Positions 1,103 to 39,917 of a stretch of DNA of 39,917 nt are shown one piece after another; positions within the stretch are counted from its first letter, which is position 1, and every line of letters starts with the position of its first letter. The DNA is taken from positions 1 to 39,917 of the forward strand of contig OMYR01000040.1 in assembly GCA_900315335.1 (NCBI GenBank), written 5' to 3'. The DNA is from an uncultured Bacteroidales bacterium. Lineage in GTDB: Bacteria; Bacteroidota; Bacteroidia; Bacteroidales; P3. Made by a program: the position numbers and the translations under genes. The notes beneath the pieces are model-generated. The model did not search any database. It saw only the letters and a program-made list of their open reading frames with translations, and had not been told where the DNA came from.

Positions 1103-1166
1103 AAATTAGTGTTTAACATTGGCGAAATAGTGTTTAACACTAATTTGCTAATCATTAACACTGATT
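1103..1166. repeat. Dispersed palindromic repeat, copy 1 (intergenic)
   Basis: AT-rich element beginning AAATTAGTGTTTAACA and containing AGTGTTTAACACTAATTT, so its ends at 1103 and 1145 are inverted copies. A further module, ATCATTAACACTGAT, extends to 1166. It belongs to the family described for the copies near 5322, 15728, 23531, 27948 and 34991. Confidence 0.8.
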
Positions 1167-1237
1167 TTACGGCAATATTATAGGCGGTTTTCGTTTATTG
1201 TTCTAATGAAATTTATCGTGCTTATGAATATTTTATA

Positions 1238-3574: not shown

Positions 3575-3646
3575 TATCATTTAATTAATGTTTAATATTG
3601 GCAAAATAATCTCCAGCATCAGTAAATTAATGTCCGTAATTATTTT
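3575..3646. repeat. Dispersed palindromic repeat, copy 2 (degenerate, intergenic)
   Basis: Contains TTAATTAATGTTTAATATTGGC and CAGCATCAGTAAATTAATGT, recognisable but decayed modules of the dispersed family. The whole mntP to 3842 gap (293 bp) is AT-rich; apart from this repeat and the promoter at 3779-3810 nothing else is seen in it. Confidence 0.55.
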
Positions 3647-3841: not shown

Positions 3842-5317
3842 ATGAAAAGGATATTATTGTTCGTTTCGGTTCTTATGTTGTTTGTGGCAAATTCTTTTTC
3901 ACAAGTTACTACATATTCCGTATCTAATAAAACGGTTCAGCAGATAGTTCAGCAGTATTTGATAGGTCCTAATATCACTTTGGCAAATGATGCCCTACAC
4001 CCATCTTTATTTCAAGGGCAATCAACGGTTAGTAGCAATCAAATTGGGGCATTTAAGAACAACATAACCAATCTTTGCGATATGCCAATGGATAGTGGTT
4101 TGGTTATGACCACTTGTGGCTATCAACAGGCACAGCCTGGTGGTTACGGATCAGGAGCTTCTCCAAATATTGGTATGTATAATATGTCGGATAGTACATT
4201 CTATTGGACATATACCAAGTATTGTATAGAAGAAGGTAAAACTGCTACCTCGATGAATACCATTGCCTTGCTTACGTTTTGGATTAAACCAAATATTGAT
4301 AACTTCCAATTCTCATATTGTTTTGCTTCTGATGAATATCCGGGTTTCGTTAATAGTTCGTTTAATGACTTTTTTGGATTTTATTTCTCAGGTCCTTATG
4401 ATTCTCTTGGTAATGTTGTTCAGGGGGGTACTGCGTATGAGATGCAGAACTTAGCTCTTGTACCCGGAACCCAAACAGCTGTGATGATTAACACTGTCAA
4501 TCACGGTAGTTACGGACACTCGCAACCTCATAGCAACCCAGAGTATCATATAGTGCCTACCGGTTCTTGTACCTCGTCTTGCGGATTTAACGAATATACT
4601 ACAAAACTTCCTACGGCAAGTACATTTGTCGTAGCCGATGCTTATTACAAAATTACTATCGGCATCTGTAATATTGGTGATGAAAGCTATCAATCCGGAT
4701 TGTTTCTTGCGAAAGATATGCGTAGGTTTGACACCATTAACATTGATACAACGATATGCGAGAACCAAGAATATTATATGGAGATAGCCGATGAGTATCT
4801 TACTCAAACTGGAAAATATAGTTACACTTATACAAATTTAACCGGTGGCGACTCTTTGATAAATATTGACTTGAAAGTAAATCCTGTTGCAATGGATAAC
4901 TATTGTTGGACATTGAAAGCAGACGATAGTTTCGAGGTTGATGATAAGGTTATCAATGCTCCGGGAACATATATATTCAAATATCAGACTTGGTTGGGCT
5001 GCGATTCGACTGTTGTGTATAATGTAGAATGGGGAGAAGAGACAATGGAAACCGATTGTGTGAGCGGAATTGACAAAGTCAATTTGAACGACAAAGTGAA
5101 AGTATATCCAAATCCTGCAAAAAATATTCTATACATTCAAGGTGTGGAACACGATGCTTTAATAACGATATTAGATGTCAGCGGTAAGCAATTGAAACAA
5201 ATAAAAGCGTCAAACGAAAACACATCGATAGATATATCCGATTTGCAAGACGGAATATATTTGGTAAATGTAATAATGGGAGACAACAATATTACAAGAA
5301 AAATTTCTAAACAGTAA
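3842..5317 (+). CDS. Secreted choice-of-anchor-L protein with T9SS sorting domain
   Basis: A 491-residue exported protein. Residues 1-21 form a signal peptide ending at FSQ. About residues 40-290 match the choice-of-anchor L domain, with the diagnostic FASDEYPGFVNSSFNDFFG segment. The Cys-containing middle (300-400) holds short repeats around DTTICENQEYY and YCWTLKADDSF. The last about 75 residues (VKVYPNPAKNILYI through ISKQ) are a type A Por-secretion C-terminal sorting domain, which sends proteins through the type IX system for surface attachment or release. It has its own consensus promoter and ends at the terminator at 5386. The molecular target is unknown; adhesion or matrix roles are plausible for this class. 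Confidence 0.9.
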   Translation: MKRILLFVSVLMLFVANSFSQVTTYSVSNKTVQQIVQQYLIGPNITLANDALHPSLFQGQSTVSSNQIGAFKNNITNLCDMPMDSGLVMTTCGYQQAQPGGYGSGASPNIGMYNMSDSTFYWTYTKYCIEEGKTATSMNTIALLTFWIKPNIDNFQFSYCFASDEYPGFVNSSFNDFFGFYFSGPYDSLGNVVQGGTAYEMQNLALVPGTQTAVMINTVNHGSYGHSQPHSNPEYHIVPTGSCTSSCGFNEYTTKLPTASTFVVADAYYKITIGICNIGDESYQSGLFLAKDMRRFDTINIDTTICENQEYYMEIADEYLTQTGKYSYTYTNLTGGDSLINIDLKVNPVAMDNYCWTLKADDSFEVDDKVINAPGTYIFKYQTWLGCDSTVVYNVEWGEETMETDCVSGIDKVNLNDKVKVYPNPAKNILYIQGVEHDALITILDVSGKQLKQIKASNENTSIDISDLQDGIYLVNVIMGDNNITRKISKQ

Positions 5318-5321
5318 TCAC

Positions 5322-5390
5322 AAAATTAATGTTTAACATTAGCAAATTAATGTGAGTGATTAATAAATTAGTGTTAAACATCAGTAAAAT
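5322..5390. repeat. Dispersed palindromic repeat, copy 3 (intergenic)
   Basis: Modules AATTAATGTTTAACATTAGC, AATTAATGTGAGTGATTAAT and AATTAGTGTTAAACATCAGT follow one another. The 3' edge runs directly into the terminator hairpin, with AAAAT shared by both. Confidence 0.8.
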
Positions 5391-5436
5391 AATTAGGGAA
5401 ACTAATTTGATAGTTTCCCTAATTATTTTTTCGTAA
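5386..5436. terminator. Bidirectional intrinsic terminator
   Basis: Perfect 19-bp inverted repeat: left arm 5386-5404 (AAAATAATTAGGGAAACTA) and right arm 5411-5429, with a 6-nt loop ATTTGA. It is flanked by T-rich sequence on the right and A-rich sequence on the left. It sits between the converging genes ending at 5317 (+) and 5464 (-) and can serve both. Confidence 0.88.
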
Positions 5437-8872: not shown

Positions 8873-9889
8873 TTACGCCTTATTTTTATTCTTTGCAATC
8901 ATCTTAACACCCCATAAATAAACTTTATCGATAGTCGGAACAGGTATATCATATTTGTGCGCAAGATCGTAAATATATTTTAATCCGAATGGAAAATCCT
9001 CCGTAAAATATCTACTATTCCAATCTATTTTATACTTACCCTGCGTTTCAATCATAGGTGAAAGAATACTCTTGAAAGCTTTTATCGAACGTAGTTTATT
9101 TGTCAAAGAATGCTTGTCATAACTTTCGTAATATTCCAATATCGGCACGATGCCCTGCTTTACATTGCATTTATCCAATATTAAGAAAAACTCCTTATCC
9201 ATTTGTATCAATACTTCGGAGGCTTCATCTGTCCAATCGGCATAAAACAATGGATTTTTATCGTAAAGAACTTTATCGTTATTGAACATTGTGTATAAAC
9301 GGGAAGTATGTAGCAATGGATTGCTGTTTGATAAACTTACGGCGAAATGATTTTCCAACAAAATCGTAGGCTTTTCAAATAGATATTCTATCGTTGAGCG
9401 TAAATCCTCCTTGTTATTGTCTCTTTCAATTGCAATTTTAAGTTCTTTTTTGTCGCCTAAAATTTTGGCACTCTTGCCATATTCTATTGTCCTTGCAATA
9501 AACGGCACTCGTTGAAATCCGAAAAGTGAAATATCTTTTGGTAAAATATCTAACGCCTCAAAGAAAAATCCCGTACTTGACACAACCGAACCGACCTTTG
9601 TGCTACTGCCGATAAAAGGTTTTATTTTCTCCAATGTCTCTTTTATTGCAAATCCAGGAAGACATAACAACACAATATCAGTGTCAGTAACTGCTCGATT
9701 AGTGTCATTAGTTATTAAATTAATGTGAGACACTAATTTTGTAGAATCACTTGTTACCAAAATCTCCTTTGACCATAATTCCGGTTTTCGTGTCAAGATG
9801 TTTATTTTAACATTATTTTTTGCTCCAAGAAAGCCTGCTATGGCATGCGTTAGATTACCTCCGCCGACTAAACAAATATTTATGTTCAT
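8873..9889 (-). CDS. NAD/NADP octopine/nopaline dehydrogenase family protein
   Basis: A 338-residue protein with an N-terminal Rossmann domain (VGGGNLTHAIAGFLG, residues 8-22; LLCLPGFAI, 74-82). The all-helical opine dehydrogenase domain includes SLSNSNPLLHTSRLY, where H194 aligns with the family's catalytic histidine. Family members reductively condense an amino acid with a 2-keto acid, but bacterial homologues outside Agrobacterium are mostly untested. It starts 4 nt after the cytidylyltransferase/PLP fusion, so the two products probably act in one pathway. Residues about 50-64 are encoded by a copy of the dispersed repeat (9697-9740), yet the frame stays open. Confidence 0.83.
   Translation of the reverse strand: MNINICLVGGGNLTHAIAGFLGAKNNVKINILTRKPELWSKEILVTSDSTKLVSHINLITNDTNRAVTDTDIVLLCLPGFAIKETLEKIKPFIGSSTKVGSVVSSTGFFFEALDILPKDISLFGFQRVPFIARTIEYGKSAKILGDKKELKIAIERDNNKEDLRSTIEYLFEKPTILLENHFAVSLSNSNPLLHTSRLYTMFNNDKVLYDKNPLFYADWTDEASEVLIQMDKEFFLILDKCNVKQGIVPILEYYESYDKHSLTNKLRSIKAFKSILSPMIETQGKYKIDWNSRYFTEDFPFGLKYIYDLAHKYDIPVPTIDKVYLWGVKMIAKNKNKA
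9697..9740. repeat. Dispersed palindromic repeat, copy inside the opine-dehydrogenase-like gene
   Basis: GATTAGTGTCATTAGTTATT followed by AAATTAATGTGAGACACTAA match modules of the intergenic copies. Read on the minus strand it encodes about residues 50-64 (TKLVSHINLITNDTN). The repeat in murE is read in the corresponding frame and gives the similar KLITHI. Confidence 0.65.
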
Positions 9890-11766: not shown

Positions 11767-12846
11767 TTAAGCGATTTTTTCCTTATCACTTTTCGGCGGA
11801 ATAATCACTGACATCAGTATGCTAATCATTAATATCGCTACAATGATTATTAAAGACAGTGAAATAGGAATATCTATATCTATCGGCTTGCATTCCAAAA
11901 TCATTTTGATACCTATAAAGAGCAACAAAACACTTAAACCGATTTTCAAAAATCTAAACATTCGTATTATACTGCTTATTAAGAAAAATAGGCTTCGTAG
12001 TCCCAAAATGGCGAATATATTAGAGAAGAAAACTATGTAAGGGTCTTTTGTTACCGAAAATATAGCAGGAATACTATCCACAGCAAACAAAACATCACTA
12101 AATTCTATTACAACCAAACAAAGTAACAACGGAGTTATAACTCTTCGTCCGTTAATCTTGCGAACAAAACTGTGGTCTGTGATTTCGTTGGTTACGGGGA
12201 AGAATTTAGAAAACAATTTCACTATTGGGTTGTTTTCGGGATGGACTTCTTCTTTCTTGTTTCGTTCTATAAACATTTTTATTGCAGAATACAGCAAGAA
12301 CACGCCGAACACCATCAAGACCCATTCGTATTTGGCAACCAACGCTCCGGCAGCAAAGATGAATATAAATCTCATTGCCATTGCTCCCAAGATACCCCAC
12401 ATCAAAACTCGTTTGTAGTATTGTGGCGGAACGGCAAATGAAGAAAATATAAGAATCATAACAAAGATGTTATCTATACTTAAAGAGTATTCAATCAAAT
12501 ACCCAGTGAAATATTCCAAAGTACTCTGCTTTCTGTAAGCATTTAACCCTTCGGTAAAATCCATTGCTTCCACTTTGTGAGCCAATGTATGACCGTGGTA
12601 TTTATTGACAATCTCAACCAAGGCTTCTTTATCTTCGATGCCGTGCATTTGTTCCCCCGTAAAACGAAGAAACAAACCGTATGCGCAAGCCAACAATATC
12701 CAAATGAATGTTGTACATAAGGCTCTTTTGAATGAAACAATTTTGTCTTTTTTCTCAAAGACGCCCAAGTCCATTATCAAAAGAAACAAGATGACGATAA
12801 TAAAACCGCCGAGAAATAGTGCTTGAATGATAGGTGAATTATGCAT
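11767..12846 (-). CDS. TerC/Alx family integral membrane metal transporter
   Basis: A 359-residue inner-membrane protein with about nine helices. TerC family motifs are YSLSIDNIFVMILIF (about residues 120-134) and VVIEFSDVLFAVDSIPAIF (about 235-253), with intramembrane acidic residues thought to bind metal. Alx and related TerC proteins export manganese; older work linked the family to tellurium resistance. It is the first gene of the minus-strand unit leading into the fusion enzyme 64 nt downstream. The last membrane helix (ILMISILMSVII) is encoded by sequence resembling the dispersed repeat. Confidence 0.9.
   Translation of the reverse strand: MHNSPIIQALFLGGFIIVILFLLIMDLGVFEKKDKIVSFKRALCTTFIWILLACAYGLFLRFTGEQMHGIEDKEALVEIVNKYHGHTLAHKVEAMDFTEGLNAYRKQSTLEYFTGYLIEYSLSIDNIFVMILIFSSFAVPPQYYKRVLMWGILGAMAMRFIFIFAAGALVAKYEWVLMVFGVFLLYSAIKMFIERNKKEEVHPENNPIVKLFSKFFPVTNEITDHSFVRKINGRRVITPLLLCLVVIEFSDVLFAVDSIPAIFSVTKDPYIVFFSNIFAILGLRSLFFLISSIIRMFRFLKIGLSVLLLFIGIKMILECKPIDIDIPISLSLIIIVAILMISILMSVIIPPKSDKEKIA
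11801..11834. repeat. Possible dispersed repeat fragment inside the terC gene
   Basis: ACATCAGTATGCTAATC differs at one base from ACATCAGTATGATAATC in the intergenic copy at 23531-23597, and is followed by ATTAAT and preceded by AATCACTG as in other copies. It is short, so chance similarity in AT-rich DNA is not excluded. Confidence 0.4.
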
Positions 12847-15727: not shown

Positions 15728-15792
15728 AAATTAGTGTTAAACATTATTTGATTAGTGTTAAACATCAGTGAAATAGTATTAAATACTAATTT
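15728..15792. repeat. Dispersed palindromic repeat, copy 4 (intergenic)
   Basis: AAATTAGTGTTAAACATTAT, then GATTAGTGTTAAACATCAGT, then AATAGTATTAAATACTAATT. The outer ends are inverted copies. It lies 28 nt after rlmN, in a position where it could act as a weak transcript-end hairpin. Confidence 0.85.
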
Positions 15793-18748: not shown

Positions 18749-19027
18749 TTTGAAGTTTTTGTTTAACCGTTTCAAGTTTTTGTTTGACGGTCTCTGTTTT
18801 TTGTCCAAAATGCACAGACTTTTGTTCAAAACGTACAAGTGGTTGTCCAAAACGCACAGAAACGCTGTTCTGAGTTGTACAACTCGCAACGACGTTTCAG
18901 GGCGTTTTGGACGAAAAACAGTGCGTTTTGGACGAATACTTCAATGATTTGGACGAAAAACAGAGGCTAACAAACATAAATTAGGGACGGATAAACATAA
19001 ATTTGAGATAAATCAACAGAAACTTGG
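18749..19027. repeat. Inverted array of 21-nt units around a palindrome
   Basis: The left half has six 21-nt units (starting 18749, 18770, 18791, 18812, 18833, 18854), e.g. GCACAGACTTTTGTTCAAAA plus C. Centre: the perfect 14-bp palindrome GAGTTGTACAACTC (18872-18885). The right half has six units in the reverse sense (starting 18902, 18923, 18944, 18965, 18986, 19007), e.g. GCGTTTTGGACGAAAAACAG plus T. Outer units also match across the centre (CGGTTAAACA on the minus strand, CGGATAAACA on the plus). In one frame outward from the centre the units read as heptapeptides (VLDNHLY, VLNKSLC; VLDEKQC, VLDEYFN), but stops and missing start codons argue against a gene. This array and the terminator are all I see in the 519-bp gap 18538-19056. 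Confidence 0.8.
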
Positions 19028-19056
19028 GACTATACATTTGTTTCGGTGGCAATAAA

Positions 19057-23429: not shown

Positions 23430-23530
23430 ATACAATTTACACAAAATAGGATAATACGGGCAAAAACCGAGAACAAAACATTACAGAAAATCAAGGTGTC
23501 GGGATTTGAAAAATCAAGTGGGTAAACTAC

Positions 23531-23597
23531 AAAATTAGTGTTAAACATCAGTATGATAATCTCACTGATTAGTGAAATAGTTTTAAACACTAATTTT
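23531..23597. repeat. Dispersed palindromic repeat, copy 5 (intergenic)
   Basis: AAAATTAGTGTTAAACATCA, GTATGATAATCTCACTGATT, then AGTGAAATAGTTTTAAACAC and TAATTTTT; the ends are inverted copies. In the 433-bp gap between apbE and mraZ (23405-23837) this copy, the promoters and the TGG-type boxes at 23741 are the only features I can support. Confidence 0.85.
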
Positions 23598-27680: not shown

Positions 27681-29255
27681 ATGAAGAAATTAAAAGATAT
27701 ATTACACGGATTTCAATTCAAAACTTATGCTTTGCAATCGCAGGGTTTGGTTGAAACGCACTACGATAGCGAAACAGAAAACAAGGATATTGAAGGCATT
27801 GCTTTTGATTCTCGCAAAGTGAAATCAAACTTTTTGTTCGTTGCCGAAAAAGGAGAAGTAACGGACGGACATCTTTATATCGAAAAAGCAATAATTAATG
27901 GTGCGACAGCAATTGTATTTGATAATCTGAAAAGTATTGATACTGCAAAATTAATCACTCACATCAGTAAAATAATATTAAACACTGATGAAATAGTGTT
28001 AAACACTAATTTGGTCTTTATTGAAGTTGATAGTTCGTCTTTTGCATTGGCTCAAATTTCGTGTAATTTCTATGATAATCCTTCACATAAACTAAACCTT
28101 ATAGGTATAACCGGCACTAATGGAAAGACTACAACGGTTACTCTTTTGTATGAGTTATTCACTCGTTTGGGATATAAATGCGGTAAAATCTCGACAATAG
28201 AAAATATAATCGTAGATAAAGTTCTTCCGACCGAAAGAACAACCCCTGACAGCATAACTCTGAATGAATTGATGAGCGAAATGGTCAATCAAGGTTGTAG
28301 GTATGTGTTTATGGAGGTAAGTTCTCATTCTGTTGTGCAAAATCGTATTGCCGGATTGAACTTCACGGGAGCGATATTCTCCAATATAACATTGGACCAC
28401 TTGGATTACCACAAGACTTTCGCAGCATATATCAAGGCGAAGAAGAAATTTTTTGACGATTTACCTAAAACCGCTTTTGCTTTGACCAATAAAGACGACA
28501 AAAACGGTATGGTAATGTTGCAAAACACCAAAGCGAAGAAATATTCTTATTGTTTGGAAAATGCCGACAGCGATTTCAAAGCCAAAGTGCTTGAAGACTC
28601 TTTTGCAGGTATGTTGTTGGATATTGCAGGCAAGGAAGTGTTTGTGCCAATGGTGGGACGATTCAATGCTTATAACATATTATGTGTTTATTCAACTGCC
28701 ATACTTCTTGGAGCGGACAAGATGGAAGTCTTGAAAAACATATCATTGTTAAAAGCAGCAAAGGGAAGATTTGAAATATATCCTTTGAAAAACGGAGCAT
28801 ACGGAATAATCGATTACGCACACACACCCGATGCGGTAGAAAACGTATTGGGTACGATAAACGATTGCAGGAATTTGTCTTCAAAGCAGGCAAAAATATT
28901 TACAGTGATAGGCTGCGGGGGAAATAGGGATAAATCCAAGCGACCTCTTATGGCTCAGATAGCATATAAGATGAGTGAAATGACAATACTTACAACGGAC
29001 AATCCACGTAATGAAAAACCAGAAGATATTATAGAAGATATGTCAAAAGGATTGGACGAAGATTTTACGAATAAATTTGTCGGTGAGCATAAAGTGTTAA
29101 AGATTACAGACAGAAGAGAAGCCATAAAAGTGGCTAAACTAATGGCTCAAAAAGGAGATATAATATTGGTAGCAGGAAAAGGACATGAGAATTATCAAGA
29201 GGTCGAAGGAGTAAAACATCACTTTGACGATAAAGAGGAATTGCTTAGCGAATAA
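27681..29255 (+). CDS. murE: UDP-MurNAc-tripeptide synthetase MurE, with an in-frame repeat insertion
   Basis: A 524-residue Mur ligase adding the third residue of the stem peptide. The P-loop is GTNGKTT at 145-151. DNPR at 440-443 marks a meso-diaminopimelate-specific enzyme. Also present are HLDYHKTF and DYAHTPDAVE. Start at 27681, 1 nt after the ftsI stop, preferred over the in-frame ATG at 27663. Residues about 90-111 are encoded by a full copy of the dispersed palindromic repeat (27948-28012). They lie in the N-terminal domain between IDTAK and LVFIEVDSSS, where homologues have a short loop. Removing them restores the expected length, and all motifs are intact, so the enzyme is probably functional. 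Confidence 0.95.
   Translation: MKKLKDILHGFQFKTYALQSQGLVETHYDSETENKDIEGIAFDSRKVKSNFLFVAEKGEVTDGHLYIEKAIINGATAIVFDNLKSIDTAKLITHISKIILNTDEIVLNTNLVFIEVDSSSFALAQISCNFYDNPSHKLNLIGITGTNGKTTTVTLLYELFTRLGYKCGKISTIENIIVDKVLPTERTTPDSITLNELMSEMVNQGCRYVFMEVSSHSVVQNRIAGLNFTGAIFSNITLDHLDYHKTFAAYIKAKKKFFDDLPKTAFALTNKDDKNGMVMLQNTKAKKYSYCLENADSDFKAKVLEDSFAGMLLDIAGKEVFVPMVGRFNAYNILCVYSTAILLGADKMEVLKNISLLKAAKGRFEIYPLKNGAYGIIDYAHTPDAVENVLGTINDCRNLSSKQAKIFTVIGCGGNRDKSKRPLMAQIAYKMSEMTILTTDNPRNEKPEDIIEDMSKGLDEDFTNKFVGEHKVLKITDRREAIKVAKLMAQKGDIILVAGKGHENYQEVEGVKHHFDDKEELLSE
27948..28012. repeat. Dispersed palindromic repeat, in-frame copy inside murE
   Basis: AAATTAATCACTCACATCAG, TAAAATAATATTAAACACTG, ATGAAATAGTGTTAAACACT, then AATTT. 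The last part equals the intergenic copies almost base for base. Encoded peptide: LITHISKIILNTDEIVLNTN. Confidence 0.88.
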
Positions 29256-30588: not shown

Positions 30589-31074
30589 ATGACGATAGAA
30601 GATTTAGCATCGGCAAATCAAGCAAGTAAATATACATTGAAATCAGAGAGAACATACGCAAACATAAGACAGATGCGAAACAGCAATCTTATGCGTGGTT
30701 TCCTTGTAAAGCATAATGCTAATGTAACAAAGGTGGCTACCATAGGAGGAGTAGATTTCATTGACGCTACAAGTATTGCTAACATTAATGCTGCGTGGTT
30801 GTTTTTCGAGAAACTCAATAAGAATGTAGTTTGCGTAATTTGTGCAGACAAAGGTTGCGAAGCCAATATAAAAAGACAGATATATGAAGTCGGCATAAAA
30901 CTTAAAAACATAATCTTCACCGATACAGATAAACAAAACATCGAAGAGAATGTATGGATTGCTAAACATATATCGAGTAATGACGATTGCGTAGTATTTT
31001 TGTCATTTAATCAAGACGAGACAACAAGACGTGAAATGGCAAAATTATTTAGTGATACTGTTATCGCAATGTGA
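30589..31074 (+). CDS. Truncated MurD-like protein (C-terminal domain only) in the murD slot
   Basis: A 161-residue ORF placed exactly where murD sits in this cluster. Residues about 48-160 resemble the MurD C-terminal domain: ATIGGVDFIDATSIANINAAW against the family's GVxFINDSKATNVNxxWYA, and CADKG at 85-89 against GGxDKG. The N-terminal UDP-binding and central ATPase domains (about 290 residues) are absent, with no P-loop. The lysine of the DSKATN motif is replaced, and the SPxxASFDxFKxYxxRG substrate segment is missing. It cannot be a ligase by itself. The frame is open and spacing is tight (6 nt after mraY, 12 nt before ftsW), so it is either a retained pseudo-enzyme or a remnant kept for translational coupling. 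Confidence 0.72.
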   Translation: MTIEDLASANQASKYTLKSERTYANIRQMRNSNLMRGFLVKHNANVTKVATIGGVDFIDATSIANINAAWLFFEKLNKNVVCVICADKGCEANIKRQIYEVGIKLKNIIFTDTDKQNIEENVWIAKHISSNDDCVVFLSFNQDETTRREMAKLFSDTVIAM

Positions 31075-31086
31075 GAAACTATTTGA

Positions 31087-32361
31087 ATGATATTAAACAC
31101 CATGGCAAGGATTAAAGGTAAAATATTAAGGGGTGATGCCGGCATTTGGACTTTTTATATAGCATTGATTTTTATCAGTGCCGTAGAGGTTCTCTCTGCT
31201 ATGGGGAAATTGATAGGACAAGGTAGTTATTGGCCGTTGTTTATCCGTCATTATGCATGGTTGGCCATAGGTTTTGCGGCTTGTTGGATTTTTCACACGA
31301 TAGATTACCGAAAAATAACGCGATATTTGAAGCTTTTACTCATAGTATCCATTGTACTTGTGATATTACCATACTTTGTGGCGTTGATTAATCATCAAAG
31401 TATATCTGTTGCAAGGTGGATACGCATACCTATGGGCTTTTTAACATTTCAATTTCAGCCGTCGGAAATAACTAAATACATTACCATATTTTATATTGCC
31501 TGCGGTATGGCATCAAATCAAGACAAAATAAAAAGTAAAGAAGTTTTTTGGTCTTTAATGCTTCCGTTACTTTTGGTATGCGGTTTGATTTTCATATCTA
31601 ATTTTTCTACAACCATATTAATATTTGTAACATGTTTTATACTTATGTGGTTAGGGGGAGTTAATGGCAAATATTTGACACTAACAGCCGTTGTTTTGGT
31701 TGCAGGATTGGCTTTATTGTTATTGATTGCATATGTAAATTCCGATGTTGCAGGATTTGGGCGTTTAGGCACTGTCATAAGCAGATTAAGCGGTCGTATG
31801 GATAATGATTTTACGGAAATCAACCAAATAAATCAAGCATTAATCGCAGTATCTACCGGAGGTTTGGCCGGTAGTGGTATAGGTCAGAGTGTTCAATCGA
31901 GATTTTTGGAAGAAGGACATAATGATTTTATATTTTCAATAATTTTAGAAGAAGGTGGATTGTGGTTAGGCGGTTTTGTAATTTTATTTTACATAGTACT
32001 AATATATAGAATGTTTATGGTTGCAAGACGGACGCAAGGTTATTTCGGATTGTTCGCTTGTTTAGGTTTTGCGATAGTTATGGCGTTGCAAACATTGATT
32101 AATATGGGCGTTGCGGTCGGATTACTACCCGTAACAGGACAAACATTACCTTTTATATCTTATGGCGGTACTTCGTTTTTGTTTGCAAGCATTTGTTTAG
32201 GAATAGTACTCAATATAAGCAGAACGGCGGATACGTCGGAAGTAATATATTCTGGCGAAGAAAAATTACAAGCAGCACAGGAGCAGACATCAGACGATAG
32301 TAAGCAGGCAAGTGATGAAGAACAATCAACAGATGAAGACGATTTGTCGAAAGATAAATAA
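31087..32361 (+). CDS. ftsW: Septal glycosyltransferase FtsW
   Basis: A 424-residue SEDS polymerase with about ten membrane helices. Motifs are SVARWIRIPMGF and QFQPSEITKY, the loop GHNDFIFSIILEEGG (about residues 277-291) and TGQTLPFISYGGTSFLF (about 346-362). The C-terminal about 40 residues are acidic and Ser/Gln-rich (EEQSTDEDDLSKDK), a cytoplasmic tail. Start 31087 is listed; MARIKGKILRGD at 31102 also fits the family. It polymerises glycan with FtsI and follows the murD relic by 12 nt. Confidence 0.95.
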   Translation: MILNTMARIKGKILRGDAGIWTFYIALIFISAVEVLSAMGKLIGQGSYWPLFIRHYAWLAIGFAACWIFHTIDYRKITRYLKLLLIVSIVLVILPYFVALINHQSISVARWIRIPMGFLTFQFQPSEITKYITIFYIACGMASNQDKIKSKEVFWSLMLPLLLVCGLIFISNFSTTILIFVTCFILMWLGGVNGKYLTLTAVVLVAGLALLLLIAYVNSDVAGFGRLGTVISRLSGRMDNDFTEINQINQALIAVSTGGLAGSGIGQSVQSRFLEEGHNDFIFSIILEEGGLWLGGFVILFYIVLIYRMFMVARRTQGYFGLFACLGFAIVMALQTLINMGVAVGLLPVTGQTLPFISYGGTSFLFASICLGIVLNISRTADTSEVIYSGEEKLQAAQEQTSDDSKQASDEEQSTDEDDLSKDK

Positions 32362-34990: not shown

Positions 34991-35056
34991 AAATTAGTGT
35001 GAGTGATTAATAAAATAGTATGAGTGATTATTTCACTGATGTTAAACACTAATTTT
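34991..35056. repeat. Dispersed palindromic repeat, copy in the murC-ftsQ gap
   Basis: AAATTAGTGTGAGTGATTAA, TAAAATAGTATGAGTGATTA, TTTCACTGATGTTAAACACT, then AATTTT. Its right end plus one base makes TAATTTTG (35050-35057), a perfect -7 promoter box, 139 nt before ftsQ. No TTTG -33 box is found at the right distance, so promoter activity is only possible. Confidence 0.82.
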
Positions 35057-39757: not shown

Positions 39758-39917
39758 CTTGAAGTTTATAAGCCGTATCTTGAAGTTTTTGTCTAAAACG
39801 TTGAGGCTTTCGTCCAAATCGTTGAGACTTTCGTCTAAAACGCTTGAAAACGCAATTCAACTTATCGCAAAGTTGTGGTTCAACTTATCGCAAACTTCAC
39901 CCTCAACTTATCGCAAA
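39758..39917. repeat. Second periodic array (21-nt units, then 14-bp repeats at 23-nt spacing)
   Basis: 21-nt units start at 39758, 39779, 39800, 39821 and 39842 (e.g. GTTGAGGCTTTCGTCCAAAT plus C). They are followed by three exact copies of CAACTTATCGCAAA at 39858, 39881 and 39904, spaced 23 nt apart. A related single unit (GATTTGGACAACAAAGATTG plus C) lies at 39650-39670 in the opposite sense. The array runs off the window end. In the 513-bp stretch after ftsZ (39405-39917) nothing beyond this and the terminator is supported. Confidence 0.75.

Follow-up and report, generated by a model that had tools for sequence, protein, structure and literature searches.

The DNA analysed here, a stretch of 39,917 nucleotides (the window), belongs to the genome of a gut-type Bacteroidales bacterium (G000) that has a sister genome, G002, ~95% identical overall and 92–96% identical in the large syntenic blocks. 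Within the window, murE carries in frame a 65-bp copy of a dispersed repeat composed of 21-nt units, which we call bricks. The copy begins at a codon boundary and codes for KLITHISKIILNTDEIVLNTN, and its last two bases open a Leu codon. Apart from MurE, genes are named by reading of their sequences. The features of murE are as follows.

27681..29255, + strand: murE, the host gene (524 aa; three Mur ligase Pfam domains above cut-off)
27948..28012, + strand: repeat copy in frame within murE, residues 90–111 (model R1 and sibling MurE without it)
27948..27968, + strand: brick 1, 21 nt, AAATTAATCACTCACATCAGT (sequence reading; 21-nt period of the family)
27969..27989, + strand: brick 2, 21 nt (sequence reading)
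27990..28012, + strand: brick 3, 21 nt plus closing TT (sequence reading)

A repeat copy in frame within murE

An earlier note on this DNA had proposed that a full member of a repeat family lies inside murE, and this was borne out. The murE copy matched the sequence-only model R1 with 59.2 bits (E 1.7e-17) across all 65 positions, the copy itself being among the 13 training sequences of that model. When the murE copy alone was compared with its own genome by BLAST, 47 matches were obtained at E ≤ 1e-3 (the self-match and some places counted on both strands included), and the best other genome copy was 88% identical across 64 nt. The score matrix gave 78.0 bits to the murE copy, whereas the best 65-mers of three first-order Markov shuffles of the window, which served as the null, reached -9.8, -5.8, and -7.9 bits.

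The MurE query matched all 41 genomes scanned, some of them partially; the weak matches in G025 and G035 are probably other Mur ligases. From 110 loci (30 kept from the 41-genome scan plus the best 80 of 580 from a second scan), 105 MurE ORFs were extracted and aligned, some of which represent one genome under two names. Only three of them, L009 (G000), L010 (G002), and L039, bear the insert. L039 is NWBO01000059.1 from Bacteroidales bacterium Phil12, whose MurE is also 98% identical; G002 is present twice in the sample, and no MurE beyond the two carrier genomes has the residues. Since G002 MurE is 98% identical to that of G000 and carries the same copy, a single event is seen in two genomes.

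The note had put the addition at about 22 residues. The element does span residues 90–111, but the net gain was 19 residues relative to the four closest insert-free proteins, L011 (G008), L012 (G001), L013 (G004), and L034 (G011), and 16 residues relative to L014 (G013) in a codon-level alignment. The ends of the insertion are approximate because the nearest MurE without the copy (G001) is just 76% identical. Loop length at this site also varies in other Bacteroidota MurE, L114 and L014 being longer than most. In an AlphaFold2 model of MurE (mean pLDDT 87.4, input alignment of 30), residues 88–99 formed a helix and residues 100–111 a coil, between strands 75–80 and 112–116. The block means of pLDDT for these two parts, 66 and 51, respectively, were the weakest of the N-terminal part.

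Copy number, reading frame, and placement of the family

The note had counted nine copies in the window, and this number was reproduced by the score matrix, with ~10 loci found by the model at E ≤ 0.001. Besides the murE copy they are the following.

1103..1167, strand not assigned: intergenic copy forming a long hairpin (model R1, folding)
3582..3646, + strand: intergenic copy (model R1, score matrix)
5323..5428, + strand: intergenic array of ~five bricks directly past a stop codon (model R1, period 21)
9675..9739, - strand: degenerate copy in frame in an opine-dehydrogenase-like gene (8873–9889, - strand), KLVSHINLITNDTNRAVTDTD (model R1; gene name by reading)
11800..11853, + strand: weak match at the C-terminal end of a TerC-like gene, which may be chance (15.8 bits)
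15728..15792, + strand: intergenic copy (model R1)
23532..23596, + strand: copy upstream of mraZ, at the junction of a 2.98-kb gene-content difference to G002 (model R1, synteny)
31042..31106, - strand: degenerate copy overlapping the end of ORF 30589–31074 (model R1, score matrix)
34991..35055, + strand: intergenic copy in the murC–ftsQ gap (model R1)

The profile search proposed in the note found copies far in excess of chance. Neither this search nor the MurE alignment, the two checks by which the note could have been refuted, spoke against it. Model R1 gave at least 175 matches in G000. At E ≤ 1e-4 the profile search returned at least 129 matches in G000, at least 137 in G002, 14 weaker ones in G001, and none in the 38 other genomes; in these counts one place may match on both strands. 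The core TAGTGTTWAACACTA, with one mismatch allowed, occurred at 187 sites in G000, 182 in G002, and 0–1 in each of the 39 others, and its reversed control at 0–2 sites. Four complete contigs (240,945 bp) contained 53 copies. The genome thus probably has several hundred arrays of this lineage-specific, mostly non-coding modular repeat. Rfam at the gathering threshold found a single tRNA in the window and no known RNA family for the repeat, and four exact brick patterns had no match in viral_contigs, which gives no sign of phage carriage.

The copies vary widely in sequence. They align without gaps as approximately three 21-nt units, each of seven codons and imperfectly palindromic, and Tandem Repeats Finder reported period 21 in 7 of its 14 rows for the window. 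The consensus of 113 strong copies was self-complementary at 50 of the 65 positions with inverted ends, and the short flanks of the copies in alignment A1 looked unalike. Folding was strong for the copy at 1103 (-28.2 kcal/mol, z -7.5) and for 5317–5435 (z -8.4), and weak for the murE copy (z -1.8) and the copy at 34991 (z -1.6). Each strand has one phase that is commonly stop-free: phase 0 was open in 87 of the 113 copies forward and 95 of 113 in reverse, whereas the other phases were open in none of 113 forward and at most one of 113 in reverse.

Of the 53 copies (≥12 bits), 34 lay between tandem genes, five between convergent and five between divergent genes, one at an edge, and eight in called ORFs. 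The four contigs are 85.8% coding according to a rough codon-usage caller, so that random placement would put ~45 of the 53 in genes; with eight observed, coding copies are strongly under-represented. We accepted four of the eight as insertions, namely those in MurE, AroC, a metallo-β-lactamase (MBL)-fold hydrolase, and the opine-dehydrogenase-like protein. Two hits, in an OmpA-like gene (C16:56422, score 26) and a TPR-like gene (C41:33936, score 21), were set aside by judgement as probably native sequence resembling the matrix, although they are still counted within the 53 and within the 42 and 36 given below. The remaining two are the gene-end overlap at 31042 and a copy in a doubtful short ORF (C6:38805).

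Elsewhere in the examined DNA, in-frame copies were present in a MurL–MurD fusion, a sugar nucleotidyltransferase, and PolA. The classification covered 137 distinct copies and 22 open-frame rows, most of the other frames being short and not taken as genes. The PolA and opine-dehydrogenase-like copies were more degenerate than the others in genes. All accepted coding copies (six plus PolA) were in phase 0 and used the hydrophilic strand, K-L-V-L-N and not L-L-M-F-N. This orientation preference is suggestive only, because the murE copy belongs to the training set that fixed the orientation of the matrix. Apart from these, a copy at L322 (G000:C44) 1396–1460 coincides in both sisters with the start codon of a gene for an ABC-transporter ATPase, and an open frame runs through it.

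Sibling alignments were made for MurE, AroC, the nucleotidyltransferase, the MBL hydrolase, and MurL. The brick peptide was found in none of 12 siblings for AroC, none of 10 for MurL, and none of eight for the MBL hydrolase. AroC of the carriers is 19–20 residues longer than in seven siblings and ~33 longer than in the other five. The net gain in the MBL hydrolase was just 9 residues, indicating that native residues were replaced or the copy was trimmed. The gains in MurE (19) and the MBL hydrolase (9) are both smaller than a full copy would supply (21–22 residues). Either host residues disappeared or the copies were trimmed, so that a simple picture of clean insertion is incomplete. The carriers are a pair of close relatives; thus, each coding insertion counts as one event.

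Brick differences between sisters and across the genus

The note had regarded the repeat as a mobile element tolerated because of its open frame. The open frame holds, with one stop-free phase per strand; mobility does not follow from the comparison with the sister. Among the 53 copies, 42 had both flanks on one G002 contig, 10 did not, and one lacked a flank. In the sister, 36 of the 42 sites had the copy at the same spacing, exactly 65 bp, three corresponded to large segments, one measured 86 bp, and two had an unclear projection (42 and 36 were counted by hand from the flank-mapping rows). No clean empty site and no presence/absence of a whole copy was found between G000 and G002 at the sites compared. 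The shared copies (34 of the 36, the two set-aside hits omitted) had a mean divergence of 4.4%, similar to that of the genome, the most divergent differing at 13 of 65 positions.

Differences between the sisters were found in the number of bricks. The MurL match extends over 1284 bp in G000 and 1305 bp in G002, and its bricks differ by one in number and also in sequence, all in frame; some of the G002 bricks are, by reading, in the other orientation. The sisters likewise differ by exactly one 21-nt brick in the intergenic array at C16:60232. Other indels in multiples of 21 nt away from the copies were discarded as candidates: two of 84 nt each were not bricks, and that at C6:58154 was a repeat in another sequence.

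Copies also lie at places where gene content changes. With blocks of ≥300 bp at >80% identity, six of the seven junctions with a gap of ≥500 bp had a copy within 100 bp, or six of eight when one filtered-out difference is counted (window 19018–19050 versus 1.15 kb in G002, at an array of another type with no family copy). Bricks are thus found at the majority of the few large gene-content breakpoints that were compared in the sisters, a count that is partly expected because copies and breakpoints both tend to fall between genes. Chimeric copies are stronger evidence of recombination than this proximity. In three of the four aligned junctions (C6:32078, C16:24298, and C6:35649), the single copy of one sister reads as the left part of one flanking copy and the right part of the other flanking copy. 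At the fourth (G002 C53:32193), crossover between the two copies compared does not explain the junction. In up to five of the longest ORFs of each of six variable segments, including C16:29388, which no copy bounds, no transposase was seen by eye; the genes read there were restriction-modification, metabolic, regulator, lipoprotein, and helicase-like genes. Beside the copy upstream of mraZ, a 3-kb segment is present only in the sister (G002:C59 9226–12203 versus window 23446–23531), and by eye it contains genes for an AraC-type regulator, a cupin/carboxymuconolactone decarboxylase-like protein, and a flavodoxin-like protein.

Bricks with other cores were detected in sibling genomes. A sequence-free search for 21-nt self-similarity in the DNA examined gave at least one hit in 11 of 12 siblings, with 21 at lag 21 versus 6 at lag 22, the next best lag, some of the lag-21 hits being repetitive coding stretches and not bricks. 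Under stricter thresholds a lag-21 signal was retained in 5 of 24 non-carrier genomes (G001, G013, G006, G022, and G024), that of G022 being such a coding stretch. The core AAAACGCCGTTTT was counted 104 times in G001, 86 in G005, 39 in G006, 19 in G010, 14 in G024, which is another genus of the same family, and 11 in G013, and at most five times in every other of the 41 genomes, with controls of 0–5 (forward plus reverse). The core CTTTTCWGAAAAG occurred 87 times in G013 and 42 in G008, and at most four times elsewhere. Among the places listed, 13 of 14 neighbouring core pairs within 100 bp were spaced by a multiple of 21 (hand count). A brick core is thus common to some species and absent from others, with the 21-bp length constant. 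A 21-nt tandem array with a core not of the G000 type was also observed in L345 (G024) at 12059–12200.

Different cores were found at the same places. At the in-frame site of the nucleotidyltransferase, G000 and G002 have bricks of their own type, whereas G008, G001, G011, and G013 have 33–54 residues whose best self-match is at lag 21, in frame and with other cores, the bricks of G008 and G013 being of one type. At this site G004 has 75 residues with a weak lag-21 signal, and G007, G010, and G003 have 12–14 residues and no bricks; one further sibling row was unreadable. In the dcw cluster, the murE–mraY gap holds CTTTTCAGAAAAG-type bricks in G013 and G008 and AAACGCCGTTTT-type bricks in G001, and 21-nt arrays lie upstream of mraZ in G000, G008, G001, and G010. 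The window itself contains further intergenic period-21 arrays at 18753–19030 and 39780–39848 (e.g., TTTTGTCCAAAACGCACAGAC and TTGAAGCTTTCGTCTAAAACG), which differ in sequence, indicating more than one brick type in G000. A 23-nt tandem repeat, TTCAACTTATCGCAAACTTCACC, is present in 2.7 copies at the window end (39856–39917).

Possible origin and relation to known repeats

Taken together with the frame property, we consider it highly probable that the 65 bp in murE are a copy of a modular repeat of 21-bp bricks that is tolerated in genes by virtue of its frame and changes through recombination and brick turnover. Because a brick equals exactly seven codons and has one stop-free frame per strand, a copy in the right phase could survive within a gene, where it would add a heptapeptide such as K-L-V-L-N-T/I-S/D, repeated a few times. 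The loop that would be lengthened in this way in MurE belongs to the N-terminal domain and is naturally variable in length. A copy in another phase or place would disrupt the gene and be purged; those retained in genes would be the ones with a suitable phase, length, and fold. Recombination between copies would reshape the arrays, which would also grow or shrink by whole bricks without a frame shift, and the core would differ between species groups of the genus while the 21-bp length stays. We infer that the insertion costs the cell little or nothing, that most coding copies are lost to selection, and that recombination drives the turnover.

The repeat could alternatively be a miniature inverted-repeat transposable element (MITE) moved in trans by a transposase, its outer inverted halves being terminal repeats and the coding copies resulting from in-frame transposition. 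The inverted ends and the self-complementarity of the consensus at 50 of 65 positions, the very many dispersed copies, and the species groups with different cores agree with such an element, and we regard it as possible, though doubtful, since array length varies by whole bricks, no presence/absence of the whole unit was found between the sisters, and no Y1 transposase, the only type searched, was found in G000, G001, and G002. The search with PF01797 (Y1 transposase, RAYT-type) gave no match in G000–G009, whereas it was positive in 5 of 14 control genomes and in four order-level relatives; a RAYT-driven REP element finds no support in this result. The bricks might instead be sites of a sequence-specific DNA-binding protein with a nucleoid, segregation, or regulatory role, whose specificity shifts between species, the intergenic copies being selected and the coding ones being by-catch. 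Twenty-one bp correspond to two helical turns, the bricks are dyads, and the same intergenic spots (upstream of mraZ, murE–mraY) hold different cores in different species; however, the wide sequence variation among copies and the gain and loss of arrays through recombination make this explanation unlikely.

A role in RNA, with hairpins at the 3' side of genes ending or stabilising transcripts as in REP/BIME, is less probable still. Of the 34 copies between tandem genes, 20 were closer to the stop of the upstream gene, the median distance from a stop being 73 nt, and some copies fold strongly (1103, 5317–5435), but 20 to 14 is no clear bias and the copies in murE and at 34991 fold weakly. Lastly, the variation in MurE length at this loop (L114, L014) would suit a native variable loop that resembles the repeat by chance or through AT-richness. 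The E value over 65 positions, the 88% identical copy over 64 nt, and null maxima below zero bits leave this practically no likelihood, and chance was ruled out for the murE stretch by the model score and the shuffled nulls.

The modular repeat tolerated by its frame behaves like the Rickettsia palindromic elements (RPE), as the note had suggested, at least by analogy: both, together with the Wolbachia WPE, are dispersed palindromic repeats of which some lie in frame inside ORFs. The likeness is one of behaviour and does not imply descent; the 21-bp module, the core replacement, and the Bacteroidales host differ. In the parts of the RPE literature consulted here, in-frame insertions are described in solvent-exposed parts of proteins (PMC3767692); the MurE insert is modelled as a low-confidence helix and coil between two strands. 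The same source, which leaves hotspot versus common origin open, reports that orthologues in different species carry different RPE groups at one site or close to it, and this parallels the nucleotidyltransferase site. RPE are given there as 100–150 bp, whereas the present repeat is ~65 bp of 21-nt bricks whose number changes in 7-codon steps. The coding share also differs, eight of 53 here versus nearly half of the first-reported R. conorii RPEs according to the portion of PMC10969869 consulted.

Other known repeats share single features. BrickBuilt, a MITE of Porphyromonas gingivalis, is likewise found in Bacteroidales as dispersed tandem short bricks in variable number; as far as the consulted part of PMC4596501 describes it, its brick is 23 nt (period 21 here), its 19 copies are always intergenic (far more copies here, some in genes), and it has leader and tail segments up to ~300 nt, whereas none were seen here and the bricks are dyads. 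REP/BIME are also short dispersed palindromes in many copies, and CGTC repeats of the REP superfamily are reported from Bacteroidetes in the part of PMC3733652 consulted; neither the GTAG nor the CGTC tag of the REP/RAYT superfamilies was seen by eye in the G000 consensus, and Y1_Tnp was absent from G000, G001, and G002. PARCEL resembles the present repeat as palindromic DNA coding for tandem peptide repeats, but its units measure 75 nt (25 residues), and the proteins that contain them, many of which are membrane-targeted, have no known function (PMC2996958, in part), in contrast to the 7-residue (21-nt) units here, which sit in conserved enzymes and are mostly non-coding. In-frame palindromic coding insertions are also described for Methanocaldococcus jannaschii (Suyama 2005, as cited in the same excerpt of PMC2996958), in an archaeal and not a Bacteroidales host.

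Such insertions in housekeeping genes are thus reported for Rickettsia, Wolbachia, and one archaeon in the portions consulted of PMC2996958, PMC3767692, and PMC10969869. The present repeat adds a Bacteroidales lineage to these hosts, with a modular unit of exactly seven codons. Among open-licence PMC papers on palindromic repeats in Bacteroidetes/Bacteroidota/Bacteroidales and on the concerted evolution of such repeats, most of them judged by listing, none was found to describe a family of this kind. Within one genus, the occupied site, insert-free siblings, changes in brick number, and replacement of sequence are available together, so that the entry and persistence of selfish palindromes in proteins and the concerted evolution of short repeats become directly testable. 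More tentatively, the bricks could form a genus-wide class of dispersed 21-bp palindromes of fixed length whose sequence is rewritten in each lineage, even in frame in a conserved gene. If true, some machinery for copying or conversion would have to recognise the length and position of a brick and not its sequence, and the bricks would represent a previously undescribed kind of short selfish repeat, able to write heptapeptides into essential enzymes.

Two observations concern murD. The 161-aa ORF at 30589–31074 occupies the expected murD position of the dcw cluster and has a match at the same place in nine of the 10 siblings examined. Elsewhere (L153, C56), murL is fused to a part that resembles murD. 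The ORF could be a leftover of MurD that has stayed a gene of its own. The MurL match lies within one open frame of 884–1148 aa in 11 of the 12 matching genomes (L308, L309, L310–L319), a frame that by reading of the sequence is a putative MurL–MurD fusion.
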